Shown one piece after another: positions 1 through 4,137 of a stretch of DNA of 5,351 bases. Both the position numbers and the translations under genes were made by a program. How positions within the stretch are numbered: the first letter of the stretch is position 1; every line of letters starts with the position of its first letter. The notes under the pieces are model-generated. The model was not told where the DNA came from, did no database searches, and saw only the letters and a program-made list of their open reading frames with translations. The DNA lies in contig JAJYUV010000067.1 in the NCBI GenBank assembly GCA_021792355.1, forward strand, positions 1 through 5,351. The letters run 5' to 3'. Source of the DNA: Thermoplasmata archaeon. GTDB lineage: Archaea > Thermoplasmatota > Thermoplasmata > Thermoplasmatales > GCA-001856825.

Positions 1-579
1 TATGTTAGGCTTTACAGTTTCCAAAGGCATACCGAAATCAGACGCTATCATCTGTGTAACTGAATTTTTAATTTTTTCGGCGTTCTCGCTTAGCACGGCT
101 TTTAGCTTGACTCGATCCTGTCTCTCAGTGATGAATTTCTCAATGTTATTTGGATATAATTCCTTTGAGAGATTAAGGAATATTGAGATATCCTCCCTGT
201 CTTCAAGGCAGTTCCACTCGAAGACGGGTTCATCTATCCCCTTCTTCATCAGTAACAGCTCGTGACCGTTGTATAAGACTCCATATGGTGCGTTGTCAGG
301 GAGCAGGTAATCTCGCAATTGCCCTCTGGCACGCTCATCAGCCAGTGGGACAGTGGGGGATTTCAGTTCAATGATAAATTTATTCTCGCCATCACCGATC
401 AGAAAATCCGGTCTTACCTTGCCATTTGTCCCTTGAACAGATGCCTGAGGATGTATATCATCTATTGACCAGTTCATTGAAGCTAGGAGCTTCTTCATGA
501 TCTTGGTGACTTCATCTTCCAGTTCGTCTTCCAGTTCACATCCCTTGTAAACATATTTTTTTATTTCCTCTTCTCCCAT
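1..579 (-). CDS. HsdR N-terminal-like PD-(D/E)xK nuclease domain protein, C-terminus missing
   Basis: The frame is open from ATG at 579 to the left edge, giving 193 residues with no stop, so the C-terminus lies outside the window. Residues 54-73 carry a PD-(D/E)xK nuclease core: PD at 57-58 and ELK at 71-73, set in beta-strand-like sequence. QLRDY at 87-91 matches the QxxxY motif that follows the ExK in type I restriction HsdR nuclease domains. YGVLYNG about 10 residues later resembles the LTNG strand of that family. The likely role is DNA cleavage or DNA binding in defence, but no helicase motif is visible, so it may be a stand-alone nuclease-domain protein rather than full HsdR. It is last in a three-gene minus-strand unit, 41 bases after the 55-residue gene. 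An in-frame GTG at 588-586 is an alternative start: GGGGG at about 592-596 sits only 3 bases before it but 12 before the ATG. Confidence 0.8.
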   Translation of the reverse strand, partial: MGEEEIKKYVYKGCELEDELEDEVTKIMKKLLASMNWSIDDIHPQASVQGTNGKVRPDFLIGDGENKFIIELKSPTVPLADERARGQLRDYLLPDNAPYGVLYNGHELLLMKKGIDEPVFEWNCLEDREDISIFLNLSKELYPNNIEKFITERQDRVKLKAVLSENAEKIKNSVTQMIASDFGMPLETVKPNI

Positions 580-620
580 TTTTTTCACTTTCCCCCTAAT
601 TTTTGCAAATCGGAAACCGC

Positions 621-788
621 TTACTCCCACTCTACCGTAACCTTAACTTTCTTTGGTTCCTTTGACCCGAACACAGACTTCTGGACGTACAATGTGCCTA
701 TCACAGGCGATCCCGTGGTCTTCTCCTGGAACCTGTAAGTGTTCTTCGTTGCACGCTCGAACTCAAATTCTATCTCCTTTTTGTCCAC
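621..788 (-). CDS. small conserved-looking hypothetical protein, 55 residues
   Basis: This short protein has alternating charged and hydrophobic strands. It contains the run KNTYRFQE (15-22), then SPVIGTLYVQK (27-37), then PKKVKVTVEW (45-54). That pattern resembles a family of very small bacterial and archaeal proteins of unknown function that I recall, with a central IGTLYVQK-like strand; probably a small beta-sheet protein. The GTG at 788 is preferred because GGGGTGA (800-794) sits 5 bases upstream. The TGA of that ribosome binding site is also the stop of the gene before it, so the two are probably translationally coupled. An in-frame GTG at 797 and an ATG at 842 are alternatives; the ATG would overlap the upstream gene by 49 bases. 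It lies between an unknown gene and the nuclease-like gene. Function not known. Confidence 0.65.
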   Translation of the reverse strand: MDKKEIEFEFERATKNTYRFQEKTTGSPVIGTLYVQKSVFGSKEPKKVKVTVEWE

Positions 789-808
789 TTTTTTCACCCC
801 TTCAGAAT
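785..808 (-). repeat. gene-junction repeat, copy 2
   Basis: On the minus strand this 24-base segment matches 1063-1086 at 21 of 24 positions: ATTCTGAA, one variable base, GGGTGAAAAA, two variable bases, then TGG. It spans the end of the 90-residue gene, the stop-embedded GGGGTGA ribosome binding site and the GTG start of the 55-residue gene. Confidence 0.6.
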
Positions 809-1066
809 CTCCCATACCCTTGGCAGGTTTCTTTCTATCCACAAGTTGAACTCATTCTCCGCATTGGCCTCCAACTTGCCATCAGCGTCGAAGACCCCCT
901 TCTTAAATACTCCGCAGTATTTCGGAAGGAACCAGTTCCACAGGATATCCCTGTCCGATATGCTCACCTTCCTCCAGATGCGCCTTATGCCCTTATATCT
1001 GTCAGAAAACAGTATGCTATCAAGTTCCTCATCCAGTCCGGAAAGATCACTTTCACCCCCAACCAT
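794..1066 (-). CDS. hypothetical protein, 90 residues
   Basis: First gene of the minus-strand unit; I do not recognise the family. It is soluble and mixed in charge: an acidic N-terminus (residues 5-17), a basic patch near 23-33 (DRYKGIRRIWRK) and a tryptophan-rich stretch WNWFLPKY at 43-50. No membrane segment or catalytic motif is evident. The ATG at 1066 is chosen because GGGTGA (1077-1072) lies 5 bases upstream, the same spacing as in the next gene. A longer form from GTG at 1138 would add 24 residues. It has no ribosome binding site but would sit about 13 bases from the start predicted from the TATA-like box near 1177, so it cannot be excluded. The stop overlaps the next gene's ribosome binding site. 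Position next to an HsdR-like nuclease suggests, but does not show, a role in defence. Confidence 0.6.
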   Translation of the reverse strand: MVGGESDLSGLDEELDSILFSDRYKGIRRIWRKVSISDRDILWNWFLPKYCGVFKKGVFDADGKLEANAENEFNLWIERNLPRVWEILKG

Positions 1067-1250: not shown

Positions 1251-1304
1251 TGCTCTTTTTCTCATTTATTGACCTTATGGCAACCTATTAGGTCTCCTGA
1301 AAAT

Positions 1305-1523
1305 ATGGGAAAATTCATGAACAGGAAGGGAGAATCGCTGTATTTGCCGGACGATGCCGCAATACAGAAGGCACGCAGTGAGGGATATCGCAAGGGTTGG
1401 GACGACAGGAGAATATTTGATGAGGGTATCGTCCAGGATGCACTGAAGGATAGCAGGAACTACAGGGAATTTGCCGAGAACGTGAGACAGAAATTATCGG
1501 AGTCAGGAGAGAGGATTGAATGA
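1305..1523 (+). CDS. small charged hypothetical protein, 72 residues
   Basis: Not recognised. The protein is highly charged and probably helical: a short basic start (MGKFMNRKGE), an acidic-hydrophobic LYLPDDAA turn, then SEGYRKGWDDRR and a C-terminal helix-rich half ending in ENVRQKLSESGERIE. No membrane helix or catalytic motif is seen. It reads into the next gene with a 4-base ATGA overlap, so the two are almost certainly one transcript and translationally coupled. The start is uncertain: ATG at 1305 and ATG at 1317 are both possible, and neither has a strong ribosome binding site (only a weak AGGT about 12 bases before 1305). A TTG at 1269 near the predicted transcription start is less likely. 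Local G+C (about 57% in one line counted) is far above that of the block to its right. Confidence 0.65.
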   Translation: MGKFMNRKGESLYLPDDAAIQKARSEGYRKGWDDRRIFDEGIVQDALKDSRNYREFAENVRQKLSESGERIE

Positions 1524-1684
1524 ACAAGTTTGACCTGGAATTCATGAACGGATACATAAAGACCAGCCTCAGGCTGGCAAGGAAGATAAACATGGCAAAG
1601 ACCCTGGACGAGGCAAAAAGGATTGCACTGGAGATTGAGGAGAAGGCAATGAGGAAACTTGAAGAGACGATGGGGGATTTATAG
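1520..1684 (+). CDS. small helical hypothetical protein, 54 residues
   Basis: Second gene of the pair, starting inside the stop of the previous gene (ATGA). AGGAGAGAGG lies upstream as ribosome binding site. The product looks like two amphipathic helices: residues 5-25 (GYIKTSLRLARKI) and 27-51 (KTLDEAKRIALEIEEKAMRKLEE), the second with a coiled-coil-like heptad pattern. Not recognised as a family. Size and pairing with another small charged protein recall toxin-antitoxin or regulator-partner pairs, but nothing in the sequence proves that. A 72-base gap follows before the four-helix membrane protein gene, so transcription could continue into it. Confidence 0.7.
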   Translation: MNKFDLEFMNGYIKTSLRLARKINMAKTLDEAKRIALEIEEKAMRKLEETMGDL

Positions 1685-1756: not shown

Positions 1757-2311
1757 ATGGGGTTGAAACTAAACTTGATTCTGTCTATCGGCGCTCTCTT
1801 GCCATTCTTCACTTTTTTGCTATTTGTATCAATCTTCATAATTCGGCCGCTTCTGTTTCCAGTTATTCCTCTCTTCCTTATATCTTTCCTCGTCAATGCG
1901 TATGCTGCTAAAATAGTGAGTACTAAGAAACAATTTAACCCCAAACCAATGAAGATAGAATCTCTTGACCCATTAAGCATGAGTGCAATATGGTTGTCCC
2001 TGTTCTCAATCATCGTCGCTGTAGCTACTCCTTTCATAGGTATAACAAAGTTATCCCAAGATTATATGTTGGCGATCGTCTTGCTATTGTCCACTATGCT
2101 GATCCTATTCTATACATTCATTCTTCGTGAAAATTCCGTATCCTTGATATTAGGTATAAGAATACTATTCCCAAGTTTCTATGTAGCAAAAACTGATACC
2201 AGTAGCACGATATATCTCATTTCAAAGGAGAAAATCCAGGCCAATAGGAACATAAAGGCTTACCATATAATAAACGACGTCTATTTCTTTGGATACATAA
2301 CCAATAATTAA
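1757..2311 (+). CDS. four-helix membrane protein, KwaA-like (putative Kiwa defence component)
   Basis: The 184-residue product has four clear hydrophobic segments at about 7-29, 31-54, 74-96 and 103-123, a polar loop at 55-73, and a soluble C-terminal tail at 125-184. The tail contains a strand-rich stretch with IYLISKEKI (from about 153) and ends in YHIINDVYFFGYI. Length, four helices and the short tail with an LISK-type strand fit what I recall of KwaA, the membrane subunit of the Kiwa anti-phage system, which senses phage attack at the membrane and works with KwaB. Support comes mainly from the neighbour: a KwaB-like gene ends 6 bases away on the opposite strand. In known Kiwa loci the two genes run in the same direction, so this layout is unusual. 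GAGTGATC just before the ATG acts as ribosome binding site. Base composition is A/T-rich, like the KwaB-like gene. It could instead be an unrelated small membrane protein. Confidence 0.55.
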   Translation: MGLKLNLILSIGALLPFFTFLLFVSIFIIRPLLFPVIPLFLISFLVNAYAAKIVSTKKQFNPKPMKIESLDPLSMSAIWLSLFSIIVAVATPFIGITKLSQDYMLAIVLLLSTMLILFYTFILRENSVSLILGIRILFPSFYVAKTDTSSTIYLISKEKIQANRNIKAYHIINDVYFFGYITNN

Positions 2312-2317
2312 TGATCT

Positions 2318-3262
2318 CTAAACCTTAGTCTTTTCCTGCGCAAGGTATTTTTCTCCAAAAATTGCATCTTTTACTGCTTGGCCATTCAGCAACTTTAGCA
2401 CATCGCCAATTATGGAATTTTGCATTTTTATGAGCCCATTGGAGAATGTTATATTAAAGCCATAATCTTTGGAAATTGGTTCAAGATCCACCTTATTCTG
2501 TACTATTCTGTCCACATAACCAGCACAGGCTGAGGCAAGTCTCCGATATTTCTTCATGTCAGGTTTCGAACCGTTAATCAATAATGACAGGTCGTTTACA
2601 ATTTTCTTGAGACTAGGAGTGGCAGCAGTTATAAAATGGTCAAATGCATCTTCGTATCTGAACAGTTGTATGAAATGATTCCTGTTGAAAATATAAAGAG
2701 GATCCCCGTATAAAATCGTGTCAACACTCATAGGCATTGAAATCAGGTTTTGTTCCTCGATCTCGGTGAATTCTCCAGTTGCCGATGGAAAGAAATATAA
2801 ATATCTTTTTGGAAACAACAGGTTTGTTTTGGTGACTTTGTTGAAGACGACAAGATCAGGTGAGAACGTTATGGCAAAGCCCTTGAGGTATGAGATGTGT
2901 GTCAATTTATTAAAGGAGATATCATCGTTATCATCCCTCCGCATTTCAGATATTATCTTACTTAAAACTGGAATATCACTTTCAGCTAGCCTCTCTATCA
3001 AGTACTCGTCTGATTGGTCATTGGAAACCATAAAATCCTTTATCTCGTTCTCTGCGCAGGTCCTTATGTAGTTCAAAACAATTTCTTGTATGCGTTTGGC
3101 AAGGGACTCCGTAATTCTCAAGTCACTGACGGACCATATTTCTTGCTTTTCCTTGTTTTTCTTCAATAATATTGCTTGTAGCTGAATGTCTGATTGCTTT
3201 GTCTCAATGACTTTTTTGTGAATCTCTTCAAGTTTTGCTTCTCTAAAATTATTACCTGGCAA
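2318..3262 (-). CDS. DUF4868 / KwaB-like protein (putative Kiwa defence component)
   Basis: Soluble protein of 314 residues from the TTG at 3262. The middle and C-terminal part fits the DUF4868 pattern of KwaB: a GFAITF strand near 128, VVFNKVTKTNLLFPKRY (138-154), a GEFTEIEE turn, then DTILYGDPLYIFNR (181-194), HFIQLFRYEDAF (196-207) and helices to the end. KwaB is the cytoplasmic partner of KwaA; Kiwa KwaB is about 315 residues, matching this length. TTG is preferred because GGGGTGAT sits 4 bases upstream and overlaps the stop of the RHH gene, implying coupled translation. An ATG at 3295 (325 residues) would overlap the RHH gene by 28 bases and has no ribosome binding site. The gene is A/T-rich (about 33% G+C in one line counted), unlike flanking operons. 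The membrane-protein gene at 1757 is its convergent neighbour. Family call fairly firm, system call inferred. Confidence 0.65.
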   Translation of the reverse strand: MPGNNFREAKLEEIHKKVIETKQSDIQLQAILLKKNKEKQEIWSVSDLRITESLAKRIQEIVLNYIRTCAENEIKDFMVSNDQSDEYLIERLAESDIPVLSKIISEMRRDDNDDISFNKLTHISYLKGFAITFSPDLVVFNKVTKTNLLFPKRYLYFFPSATGEFTEIEEQNLISMPMSVDTILYGDPLYIFNRNHFIQLFRYEDAFDHFITAATPSLKKIVNDLSLLINGSKPDMKKYRRLASACAGYVDRIVQNKVDLEPISKDYGFNITFSNGLIKMQNSIIGDVLKLLNGQAVKDAIFGEKYLAQEKTKV

Positions 3263-3267
3263 TATAA

Positions 3268-3447
3268 TCACCCCACCGCATGATCCCTCTTCCATCGATC
3301 AATCTTTTCATTGAGGGCATCCTGAATGAACTGCTGCGGTGAGTTCCACTTCCTCTCCTTCTCTAGAATCCTGATGACTTCTTCGTATAATCCTTCGGGA
3401 AGTCTTAGATTCACTGGCACAGTTTTAACATAGGGCTGTTTTGGCAT
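3268..3447 (-). CDS. ribbon-helix-helix DNA-binding protein 1
   Basis: A 59-residue protein with an RHH (Arc/CopG/MetJ-type) core: beta strand TVPVNLRLP (9-17), helix 1 EGLYEEVIRILEKERK (18-33), turn WNSP and helix 2 QQFIQDALNEKIDRWK (38-53). Such proteins dimerise through the strand and bind operator DNA, usually repressing their own operon. The ATG at 3447 is chosen because a TATA-like box (3471-3480) predicts initiation at about 3447-3450, making this a leaderless gene; TTG codons at 3465 and 3462 are less likely. Its stop forms part of the GGGGTGA ribosome binding site of the KwaB-like gene, so it probably controls or partners that gene. It shares the VNLRLPE.LY.E core with the divergent RHH gene at 3538 and looks like its paralogue. 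An antitoxin role is possible but unproven. Confidence 0.8.
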   Translation of the reverse strand: MPKQPYVKTVPVNLRLPEGLYEEVIRILEKERKWNSPQQFIQDALNEKIDRWKRDHAVG

Positions 3448-3470
3448 GCAACCATGACGCAACAAAAAGA

Positions 3471-3480
3471 TTTATTATAT
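3471..3480. promoter_or_regulatory. shared TATA-like box between divergent RHH genes 1 and 2
   Basis: TTTATTATAT on the plus strand is ATATAATAAA on the minus strand. To the left it predicts a start near 3450, almost on the ATG at 3447; to the right near 3502, leaving about 36 bases before the ATG at 3538. One element may serve both genes. Confidence 0.45.
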
Positions 3481-3490
3481 TGCTAAATGA

Positions 3491-3510
3491 TATGGTATCT
3501 ACTTGGTGTC
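3491..3510 (+). promoter_or_regulatory. possible operator: two similar 9-base half-sites
   Basis: TATGGTATC (3491-3499) and CTTGGTGTC (3502-3510) form an imperfect direct repeat with an 11-base period, about one helical turn, just after the shared TATA-like box. RHH dimers often bind such spaced sites, so autoregulation by gene 1 or 2 is plausible. The match is short. Confidence 0.25.
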
Positions 3511-3537
3511 ATTAAATGTCTACGAGGTTGATTTCAA

Positions 3538-3684
3538 ATGAATGATAGCATTCCGGTTAACCTGCGGCTGCCGGAAAAACTTTATGACGAGGCAAAAAAA
3601 GCAGCACAGAATCACGGTTACTCAAGCGTTCCGGATTTCATAAGGCAGGCGTTAAGGGAATTTCTAAAAAAGGAGGTTCCCTGA
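3538..3684 (+). CDS. ribbon-helix-helix DNA-binding protein 2
   Basis: A 48-residue minimal RHH protein: strand SIPVNLRLP (4-12), helix 1 EKLYDEAKKAAQNHG (13-27), turn YSSV and helix 2 PDFIRQALREFLKKE (32-46). It is nearly all DNA-binding fold with no extra domain, as in small Arc/CopG-type repressors and plasmid or virus regulators. GAGGTTGAT at 3524-3532 is the ribosome binding site, 5 bases before the ATG. It is divergent from RHH gene 1, 90 bases away, and the strand and first helix of the two proteins are clearly related. It is convergent with RHH gene 3, 42 bases downstream. No partner gene follows on the same strand, so it may act alone, for example on the shared promoter. Confidence 0.82.
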   Translation: MNDSIPVNLRLPEKLYDEAKKAAQNHGYSSVPDFIRQALREFLKKEVP

Positions 3685-3726: not shown

Positions 3727-3879
3727 TCAGGGTTTCCTGGACTTTTCAAGTTCCTTCCTAAGAAGATTATTTACAAGCTCAGAAACGGACCTGTATCCTA
3801 GCTCCGGATGTTCTTTTACCAGCTTCTCAACTTCTTCAAAAAGAGGTTTTGGTATTCTAGCAGAACTGTACTGCGGCAT
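3727..3879 (-). CDS. ribbon-helix-helix DNA-binding protein 3
   Basis: A 50-residue RHH protein: strand YSSARIP (4-10), helix 1 KPLFEEVEKLVKEHPEL (11-27), turn GYRS and helix 2 VSELVNNLLRKELEKS (32-47). The ATG at 3879 is chosen because the domain starts there; upstream residues in the same frame are rich in Cys, His and aromatics and look non-coding. No good ribosome binding site is visible. A TATA-like CATATATG near 3921-3928 predicts a start near 3897, so the leader is short. It is divergent from RHH gene 4 and shares the RIP..LF.EV core with it. It has no gene behind it on its own strand: the next minus-strand gene is RHH gene 1, beyond the convergent gene 2. Confidence 0.75.
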   Translation of the reverse strand: MPQYSSARIPKPLFEEVEKLVKEHPELGYRSVSELVNNLLRKELEKSRKP

Positions 3880-3888
3880 GGAAGAGAT

Positions 3889-3934
3889 ATATATGTGCAA
3901 GAATAAGAATGTAGATGTTGCATATATGTGGCAA
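3889..3934 (+). repeat. paired direct repeat ATATATGTG(G)CAA in divergent promoter
   Basis: ATATATGTGCAA at 3889-3900 recurs as ATATATGTGGCAA at 3922-3934, 33 bases apart and differing by one inserted G. Both lie before RHH gene 3, and the second overlaps the TATA-like box. They may be operator sites for an RHH protein. Confidence 0.4.
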
Positions 3935-3975
3935 TATTCAAATAGAGGCATGTGTTTAGTGCATGTATGCAACAT
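3915..3975. promoter_or_regulatory. inverted-repeat operator and divergent promoter of RHH genes 3 and 4
   Basis: ATGTTGCATATATG (3915-3928) and CATGTATGCAACAT (3962-3975) are inverted copies matching at 13 of 14 positions with a 33-base spacer. The left arm contains CATATATG, a TATA-like box able to serve both directions: a start near 3897 for gene 3 and near 3950 for gene 4. Placement over the promoter and between two RHH genes fits an autoregulatory operator. The core ATGCAAC also occurs at 3446-3452, at the start of RHH gene 1. Confidence 0.5.
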
Positions 3976-3987
3976 AGGAGTGGCAAT

Positions 3988-4137
3988 ATGAATTGGGCTA
4001 CAGTGAGAATACCTCAGAATTTATTTGATGAGGTCAATAAGAAATTATCGGATTTGAACGCCACTTCAGTTTCCGAGATAACAAGACGGGTTCTTGTTGA
4101 ATATCTTGAAAAGGCTGCATCTAAGGAAGTTTTGTGA
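3988..4137 (+). CDS. ribbon-helix-helix DNA-binding protein 4, head of the small-gene operon
   Basis: A 49-residue RHH protein: strand WATVRIP (3-9), helix 1 QNLFDEVNKKLSDLN (10-24), turn ATS and helix 2 VSEITRRVLVEYLEKAA (28-44). AGGAGTGG at 3976-3983 is the ribosome binding site, 4 bases before the ATG at 3988; an in-frame ATG at 3952 would add unlikely Cys/His-rich residues and lie at the predicted transcription start. The stop is one base from the start of the next gene, and the following genes are packed with overlaps, so this is the probable regulator of the operon to 5351. Its core resembles RHH gene 3 (RIP..LF.EV and SVSE), suggesting duplication of the pair. Confidence 0.82.
   Translation: MNWATVRIPQNLFDEVNKKLSDLNATSVSEITRRVLVEYLEKAASKEVL

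Follow-up and report, generated by a model that had tools for sequence, protein, structure and literature searches.

Kiwa has been worked out in bacteria, and its apparent presence in the archaea studied here asks what the Kiwa core really needs. To our knowledge, archaea are without RecBCD, and these archaea have no cell wall. The question is raised by a 5,351-nt stretch of DNA from an acid-loving Thermoplasmata archaeon (the window), in which a kwaA-like and a kwaB-like gene lie on opposite strands and run towards each other. Do the two genes form a Kiwa system, and what made them convergent? We read the pair as a new gene-order variant of Kiwa carried in an archaeal defence-exchange slot. 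From the sequence comparisons below, a Kiwa-type antiviral pair is probably the cargo of a two-sided defence slot in mobile or integrated DNA of the Thermoplasmatales. The original prediction concerned the pair; a slot whose flanks are common to other convergent defence-candidate pairs goes beyond what it saw. The pair has the following parts:

1757-2311, plus strand: kwaA-like gene (184 aa) whose product has four predicted membrane helices
2312-2317, no strand: gap of 6 bases between the convergent stops
2318-3262, minus strand: kwaB-like gene, 314 aa from TTG 3262; the frame is open to ATG 3295 (325 aa)

Both frames (1757-2311 on the plus strand and 2318-3295 on the minus strand) were uninterrupted, and the coordinates bore out a tail-to-tail pair whose stops are 6 bases apart. 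Convergent genes frequently overlap by 4 bp at their stops, a feature to which we gave no evidential weight. TTG 3262, the start taken in the original prediction, was favoured for kwaB because it fits the lengths of the related KwaB proteins (314-317 aa in 15 of 19, 323 aa in three and 209 aa in one) and because GGTGGGGTGA lies upstream. The G+C content was 0.366 in kwaA and 0.375 in kwaB, compared to 0.449 and 0.46 in the window flanks. The archaeal host that had been proposed agreed with protein and DNA matches in Thermoplasmatales genomes. A locus on a 1,938,699-bp chromosome whose KwaB bears the name Cuniculiplasma divulgatum in a database (genome G081, locus L063) contained convergent homologues with 37% (KwaA) and 51% (KwaB) identity to the window proteins, which takes the window pair beyond chance.

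The domain matches identify the minus-strand gene as KwaB. Its only Pfam match was PF16162 (KwaB, DUF4868), at 41 bits with a cut-off of 26.3, three PADLOC KwaB models were matched (best E=8.6e-10), and in profile-profile comparison the KwaB profile A1 matched A6, a set of eight KwaBs, at 98.7% (E=2.4e-16); the DUF4868/KwaB-like assignment thus stood. Against the lone KwaB of genome G532, A1 reached 3.5%. Twenty database proteins matched the window KwaB at E<=1e-3, namely the identical P0009 and 19 others with 51-68% identity; all 20 carried PF16162, and the source name of one, P0026, includes both Kiwa KwaB-like and Cuniculiplasma divulgatum. In 400 Thermoplasmata genomes the KwaB alignment matched two at E<=1e-3 (G081 and a 55-residue match with inner stops), and among 389 genomes of the phylum the PF16162 profile picked out two, G081 and G532. 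KwaB was found in none of 16 named Thermoplasmata genomes. Scans of genome contigs and viral contigs with the KwaB alignment, of viral contigs with the Halobacterium KwaB, of plasmids by tblastn with the window and G532 KwaBs, and of phages by tblastn gave no match. PDB sequence searches with KwaA and KwaB gave no match either, apart from two hits at chance level in one of them (E 1.1 and 1.5).

The plus-strand protein on its own fell under every curated threshold (PADLOC KwaA E=0.026; NCBIfam KwaA 13.6 bits vs a cut-off of 100) and had no Pfam match. These weak single-sequence scores are what would be expected if a KwaB-like gene merely lay beside an unrelated four-helix membrane protein, as is the result of hhalign between the family profile A4 (8 rows) and the KwaA of G532, which gave no match (0.2%); the G532 KwaA itself reached only 0.0053 with PADLOC. 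The relatives of the window protein argue against two unrelated neighbours. Seven relatives and the L063 copy were scanned with the PADLOC KwaA models, and three of the eight matched (P0005 at 6.8e-5, P0004 at 6e-5 and P0006 at 3.8e-6), with no match for P0002, P0003, P0007, P0008 and the L063 copy; P0004/P0005 and P0006/P0007 are near-twins, so these are about two independent matches, and one twin was missed. Also against it, A4 matched A7 by profile-profile comparison at 97% (E=8.1e-11 over 162 columns), and the controls were clean: 0.59% for the reversed target and at most 0.48% for 40 column-shuffled targets. A7 consists of eight KwaAs, from Microvirga, Roseivivax, Paenibacillus, Halobacterium, a C. 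difficile phage and three Thermoplasmata. One of its members, the KwaA of Thermogymnomonas acidicola, had a PADLOC E-value of 3.5e-16 and matched A4 at 92%. A similar gene adjoins in L063 and in the T. acidicola locus L069, and we regard unrelated neighbours as very unlikely. The hydropathy profile had four peaks (residues 11-29, 32-50, 78-96 and 105-123), and together with the A4-A7 match and its controls this upheld the KwaA-like membrane protein of the original prediction. Its relatives and the profile comparison mark the plus-strand protein, with its four helices, as a diverged KwaA.

A KwaA search of the 117 genomes of the order gave five matches at E<=0.01 and led to T. acidicola (G009); three weak matches (G374, G402 and G016) lay inside long frames of 452-662 aa and were rejected. 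The PADLOC KwaA model gave 10 matches at E<=0.01 in the 400 Thermoplasmata genomes, five of them at E<=1.3e-6; five weak matches to PDLC00216 (G231, G169, G339, G150 and G345) lie outside the loci that were read. Viral contigs scanned with the window KwaA and with the T. acidicola KwaA gave no match.

The two genes were adjacent in the window, L063 and L069. In L063, kwaB (9498-10448, plus strand) and kwaA (10469-11038, minus strand) are convergent and 20 bases apart, and in T. acidicola the KwaA gene meets its partner, a 352-aa gene, tail to tail, the two overlapping by 7 bases. The 352-aa partner had no KwaB match in Pfam or PADLOC. A search with it found three proteins, one of them the partner itself; a profile of the partner and the other two gave a 93% match to the KwaB family (E=3e-7, with 0.8% for the best of 40 shuffles) and a poor one to A6, at 7.6% (best shuffle 1.5%). 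On these profile matches the partner is a KwaB so diverged that only profiles detect the kinship. Since the genes stay adjacent in three lineages, the inference that kwaA and kwaB form one system is strengthened. Recurrence of the convergent pair in related archaea, on which the original prediction had called for a survey, was thus found in two further loci.

In each of the eight further Kiwa loci for which both genes were read, kwaA and kwaB are on the same strand, in line with the statement that known Kiwa genes run in one direction; the window pair departs from this. kwaA comes first in Roseivivax, Microvirga, Halobacterium BOL4-2, G532, G113 and G316, and kwaB in Paenibacillus and the C. 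difficile phage. The count omits G324 and G377:C62 (KwaA cut by contig ends), Natrinema (a KwaB fragment without KwaA) and L090-L093 (with 98-100% identity to kwaB of the C. difficile phage). In PMC11514479, the Kiwa of S. thermophilus is given as kwaB, kwaA in one range. Among the records read, the kwaB and kwaA of Clostridioides phage CD1801 (L079:2165-3716) are annotated as bacteriocin synthesis and hypothetical proteins, and a Natrinema salinisoli plasmid (L078:2471-2938) has a 155-aa KwaB fragment only, with no KwaA annotated beside it. A literature search found no paper joining Kiwa with Cuniculiplasma, nor Kiwa with DUF4868.

A rival account of the convergent order is a single inversion of a Kiwa operon in an ancestor of these archaea, followed by plain inheritance, the common flanks being incidental. 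Trees did not reject a single clade for the convergent set (p-AU 0.523 for KwaA and 0.358 for KwaB, with long branches in both), and they neither showed nor rejected a single origin of convergence. KwaB is patchy, in that two of the 117 genomes of the order matched its alignment at E<=1e-3, one by the 55-residue match with inner stops, and the same flanks house other pairs; both points speak against a single inversion, which we consider possible without being likely. The flanks, or caps, that we favour as the setting of the pair are the following:

1269-1523, plus strand: 84-aa ORF, outer part of the left cap; its start may be ATG 1305, and it overlaps the next ORF by ATGA
1520-1684, plus strand: 54-aa ORF (MNxFDxEFxNG...), left cap; searched for in the 117 genomes of the order
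3268-3294, minus strand: 3' end of the regulator gene, right border of the cargo; the stop lies inside GGTGGGGTGA, which is Shine-Dalgarno-like for kwaB
3268-3447, minus strand: 59-aa ribbon-helix-helix (RHH) regulator gene, right cap
3469-3480, minus strand: TATA-like ATATAATAAATC, candidate promoter of the regulator gene, found by inspection; a similar stretch is in L113

The DNA of the window matched genome G011 (L113) at 1519-1677 and 3265-3677, with nothing between. The borders of the cargo are sharp. On the left, DNA identity ended at 1677-1683 in four of the five matching loci and at 1617 in L137; on the right, identity to L113 began at 3265 and identity to L115 at 3268. kwaB starts 5 bases past the RHH stop in GGTGGGGTGA, and all 27 bases of the RHH 3' end (3268-3294) were the same in L114. 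The 54-aa ORF was found at 17 places in 14 of the 117 genomes, with 72-85% identity to the window in L113, L134, L135 and L136, and tblastn found the 84-aa ORF in L113, L134 and L138 among 13 loci tried. The window RHH protein was 85% identical in L113, 73% in L115 and 49% in L137. Further out on the left, a gene cut by the window end (1-630, minus strand) resembles the N-termini of type I restriction R proteins (PF13588, 1.2e-5) and is 64% identical in G268, where the ORF has 355 aa; next to it is a 73-aa ORF (621-842, minus strand), and the region around 620-815 matched 14 of the 117 genomes with 74-86% DNA identity. Near the right cap are three short RHH-like genes (3538-3684, plus strand; within 3727-3975, minus strand; within 3952-4137, plus strand), two recognised by tblastn likeness to the cap RHH and one by a sub-cut-off RHH_1 match.

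By sequence, the slot is laid out as left cap, gene A, facing gene B and right cap; the pair varies and the caps stay. Matches to the kwaAB DNA were absent from L113, L134, L135 and L114, and L115 had a single one of 26 bp (E=5.6e-4). When the 17 small-ORF places were read, a convergent pair came directly next in 10: six of the seven strong places (E<=3.1e-14) and four of the ten weak. The pairs are as follows:

L113 (G011): radical SAM (PF04055) facing TcmP-like; PDC-M30A 2.7e-47, PDC-M41A 2e-15
L115 (G268): radical SAM facing TcmP-like; 70% DNA identity to L113
L144: radical SAM/TcmP-like, by eye
L135: radical SAM and a protein matching M41A, not M30A
L137: as L135, by DNA similarity; the small ORF has an inner stop and the A gene runs into unknown bases
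L114: DUF1828/DUF6978-like, which is PDC-M24B/M24A
L134: DUF1828/DUF6978-like, by DNA similarity to L114
L138 (1716-2192 and 2189-3016), L140 and L146: unnamed convergent pairs

L136 kept the small ORF and the RHH gene but had no plus-strand cargo gene, in five weak places the small ORF was a different one and no pair was clear, and one further place was spurious. The PADLOC defence-candidate scores of the cargo were 2.7e-47 (M30A), 9.9e-16 (M41A), 2.9e-20 (M24B) and 3.1e-5 (M24A); the DUF6978 match lay under the Pfam cut-off (20.2 vs 29.6 bits), and the radical SAM protein had no PADLOC match. Five of the six proteins of the unnamed pairs were scanned (both of L138, both of L146 and one of L140) and had no PADLOC match, and a PDB sequence search with one L146 protein gave none; by position, the three pairs are candidates for new defence systems. 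Conserved flanks with different defence-candidate cargo, the feature of a defence slot, were thus found. For poorly studied archaea this gives a rule for finding defence genes: read between the 54-aa ORF and the regulator.

The right cap varied in type. Behind gene B there is an RHH gene in the window, L113, L115 and L137, a winged-helix/RHH fusion in L114, L134 and L140, and a winged-helix gene in L144 and L146, with other short or cargo genes between B and the regulator in L114, L140 and L146; L135 and L138 had no regulator gene close behind B. Winged-helix genes on the kwaB side of L063 and of L098 (T. acidicola), with an ORF in between, are kin of the right caps: in a nine-protein comparison their kinship to L146 was 8e-25 for T. 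acidicola and 1.4e-13 for C. divulgatum. For the left cap, an ORF in L063 was not significant (E=0.075) and none was found in L098. Two more KwaB genes, P0021 and P0022, probably follow the same RHH end, since their N-termini (MEERSCGG... and MEKRSCGR...) are that end read in the other frame. Searches of the viral contigs with the RHH alignment and the small-ORF alignment found no viral contig with these caps.

The link between regulator and cargo could also mean that the pair is a regulator-linked toxin-antitoxin or plasmid-maintenance module that is not antiviral. RHH genes are often part of toxin-antitoxin loci, and here the regulator frame overlaps that of kwaB. Other cargo, however, is preceded by the same RHH gene, and the cargo matches defence-candidate models; we judge such a module unlikely. 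The one Pfam match of kwaB is KwaB.

Because the Kiwa pair sits between caps that hold other convergent pairs, its convergent order looks local in cause. A slot that forces convergence was weakened as an idea by the TcmP pairs: TcmP and the radical SAM (Gp37/Gp68) gene were convergent in two of three loci beyond the Thermoplasmatales, namely in Rhodococcus and Streptomyces plasmids, and the slot may therefore accept convergent pairs and not make them. In its general form, this would mean that many two-gene defence candidates are usually convergent and that the slot collects pairs without shaping them. A Haloarcula gene weakly like M24A (27% over 66 aa, E=0.006, three-protein comparison) and convergent to DUF1828 at a distance of 263 bp fits this as well. 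Kiwa itself, however, is same-strand in the eight other loci, and in Haloarcula TcmP and a radical SAM gene share a strand; a slot that only collects is possible, if short of probable. Among the slot cargo, a change of gene order is documented here for Kiwa alone. A literature search for the slot idea gave no title on the subject among the matches listed.

Several loci showed signs of exchange. L115 and L135 shared 84% identity across 1187 bp, a stretch that starts in the left cap and breaks off some 20 bp short of the radical SAM stop, with no match in B, and the same was seen between L113 and L135 (72% over 1253 columns). The B proteins of the L113/L115 type and the L135 type are distant relatives and both kinds match M41A, so the difference between the halves could be uneven divergence; B of L115 and L135 may differ by replacement by, or divergence from, a distant relative, and the former would be a half-swap. 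L114 and L134 were 74% identical in the regulator and 64% in the M24 pair with the regulator end. In L114 the regulator 3' end is present twice (85% over 55 bp), and the copies enclose an extra ~1340 bp that include a PKD-domain gene; the locus looks like L134 with a ~1.34-kb insertion, in a comparison between diverged genomes. In L063, a 321-aa ORF (8435-9400) with no Pfam, PADLOC or NCBIfam match separates the winged-helix gene from a repeat of its 3' end (79% over 71 bp) that precedes kwaB. Clear second copies were found for two of 12 regulators tried. L135 also has a lone 55-bp copy of an RHH 3' end (oriented 6257-6311; 84% to L115), about 3.4 kb past B, which is perhaps a remnant of an older right border.

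If the window pair acts as bacterial Kiwa does, KwaA in the membrane would sense virus entry, and KwaB would dock on KwaA and bind incoming viral DNA. kwaB would be translated from the stop and Shine-Dalgarno-like stretch of the regulator and transcribed from its promoter, and kwaA would be transcribed from the left-cap side, which would place the two subunits under separate control. We infer this cap-driven expression from position and from the TATA-like stretch at 3469-3480 with its counterpart in L113. Recombination in the caps may exchange the cargo, possibly one half at a time where the two genes meet; cargo may also be added by insertion at the regulator's 3' end, duplicating that end. 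Tentatively, and with considerable doubt, these steps can be joined into a Thermoplasmatales capture platform, which the distant kinship of the two kinds of B gene beside the radical SAM gene makes slightly less probable. Two inward-facing cap operons would hold convergent two-gene cassettes whose halves are exchanged at the tail-to-tail junction; additions would enter at the regulator 3' end, rebuilt each time to give a ribosome-binding site; the cargo would be expressed and regulated without a promoter of its own; and Kiwa would have turned convergent to fit. If this is true, the unlabelled pairs of L138, L140 and L146 are new defence systems.

Some elements are known to integrate into a gene's 3' end and rebuild it. 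L114 and L063 resemble this in carrying a second regulator 3' end before other cargo, although the copies are imperfect, at 85% identity over 55 bp and 79% over 71 bp. The TcmP and phage Gp37-Gp68 (radical SAM) pair, PDC-M30, is like the Kiwa pair convergent in the same slot (L113 and L115), but its proteins are unrelated and it is convergent in some bacterial plasmids too. The defence hotspots of P2-like phages and P4-like satellites (PMC9122126) likewise hold variable anti-phage genes; unlike there, the 3' end of the cap regulator starts the next gene here and the cargo is a convergent pair. Bacterial Kiwa shares with the window a PF16162 KwaB and an adjacent KwaA-like membrane partner of similar sizes, whereas the window genes are convergent, KwaA is highly diverged and a regulator gene is linked. 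The reviews PMC12904381 and PMC12593503 describe a KwaA tetramer, KwaB dimers, injected DNA bound without cutting and a partnership with RecBCD. E. coli Kiwa works with RecBCD, according to PMC12593503, whereas the host of the window is archaeal.
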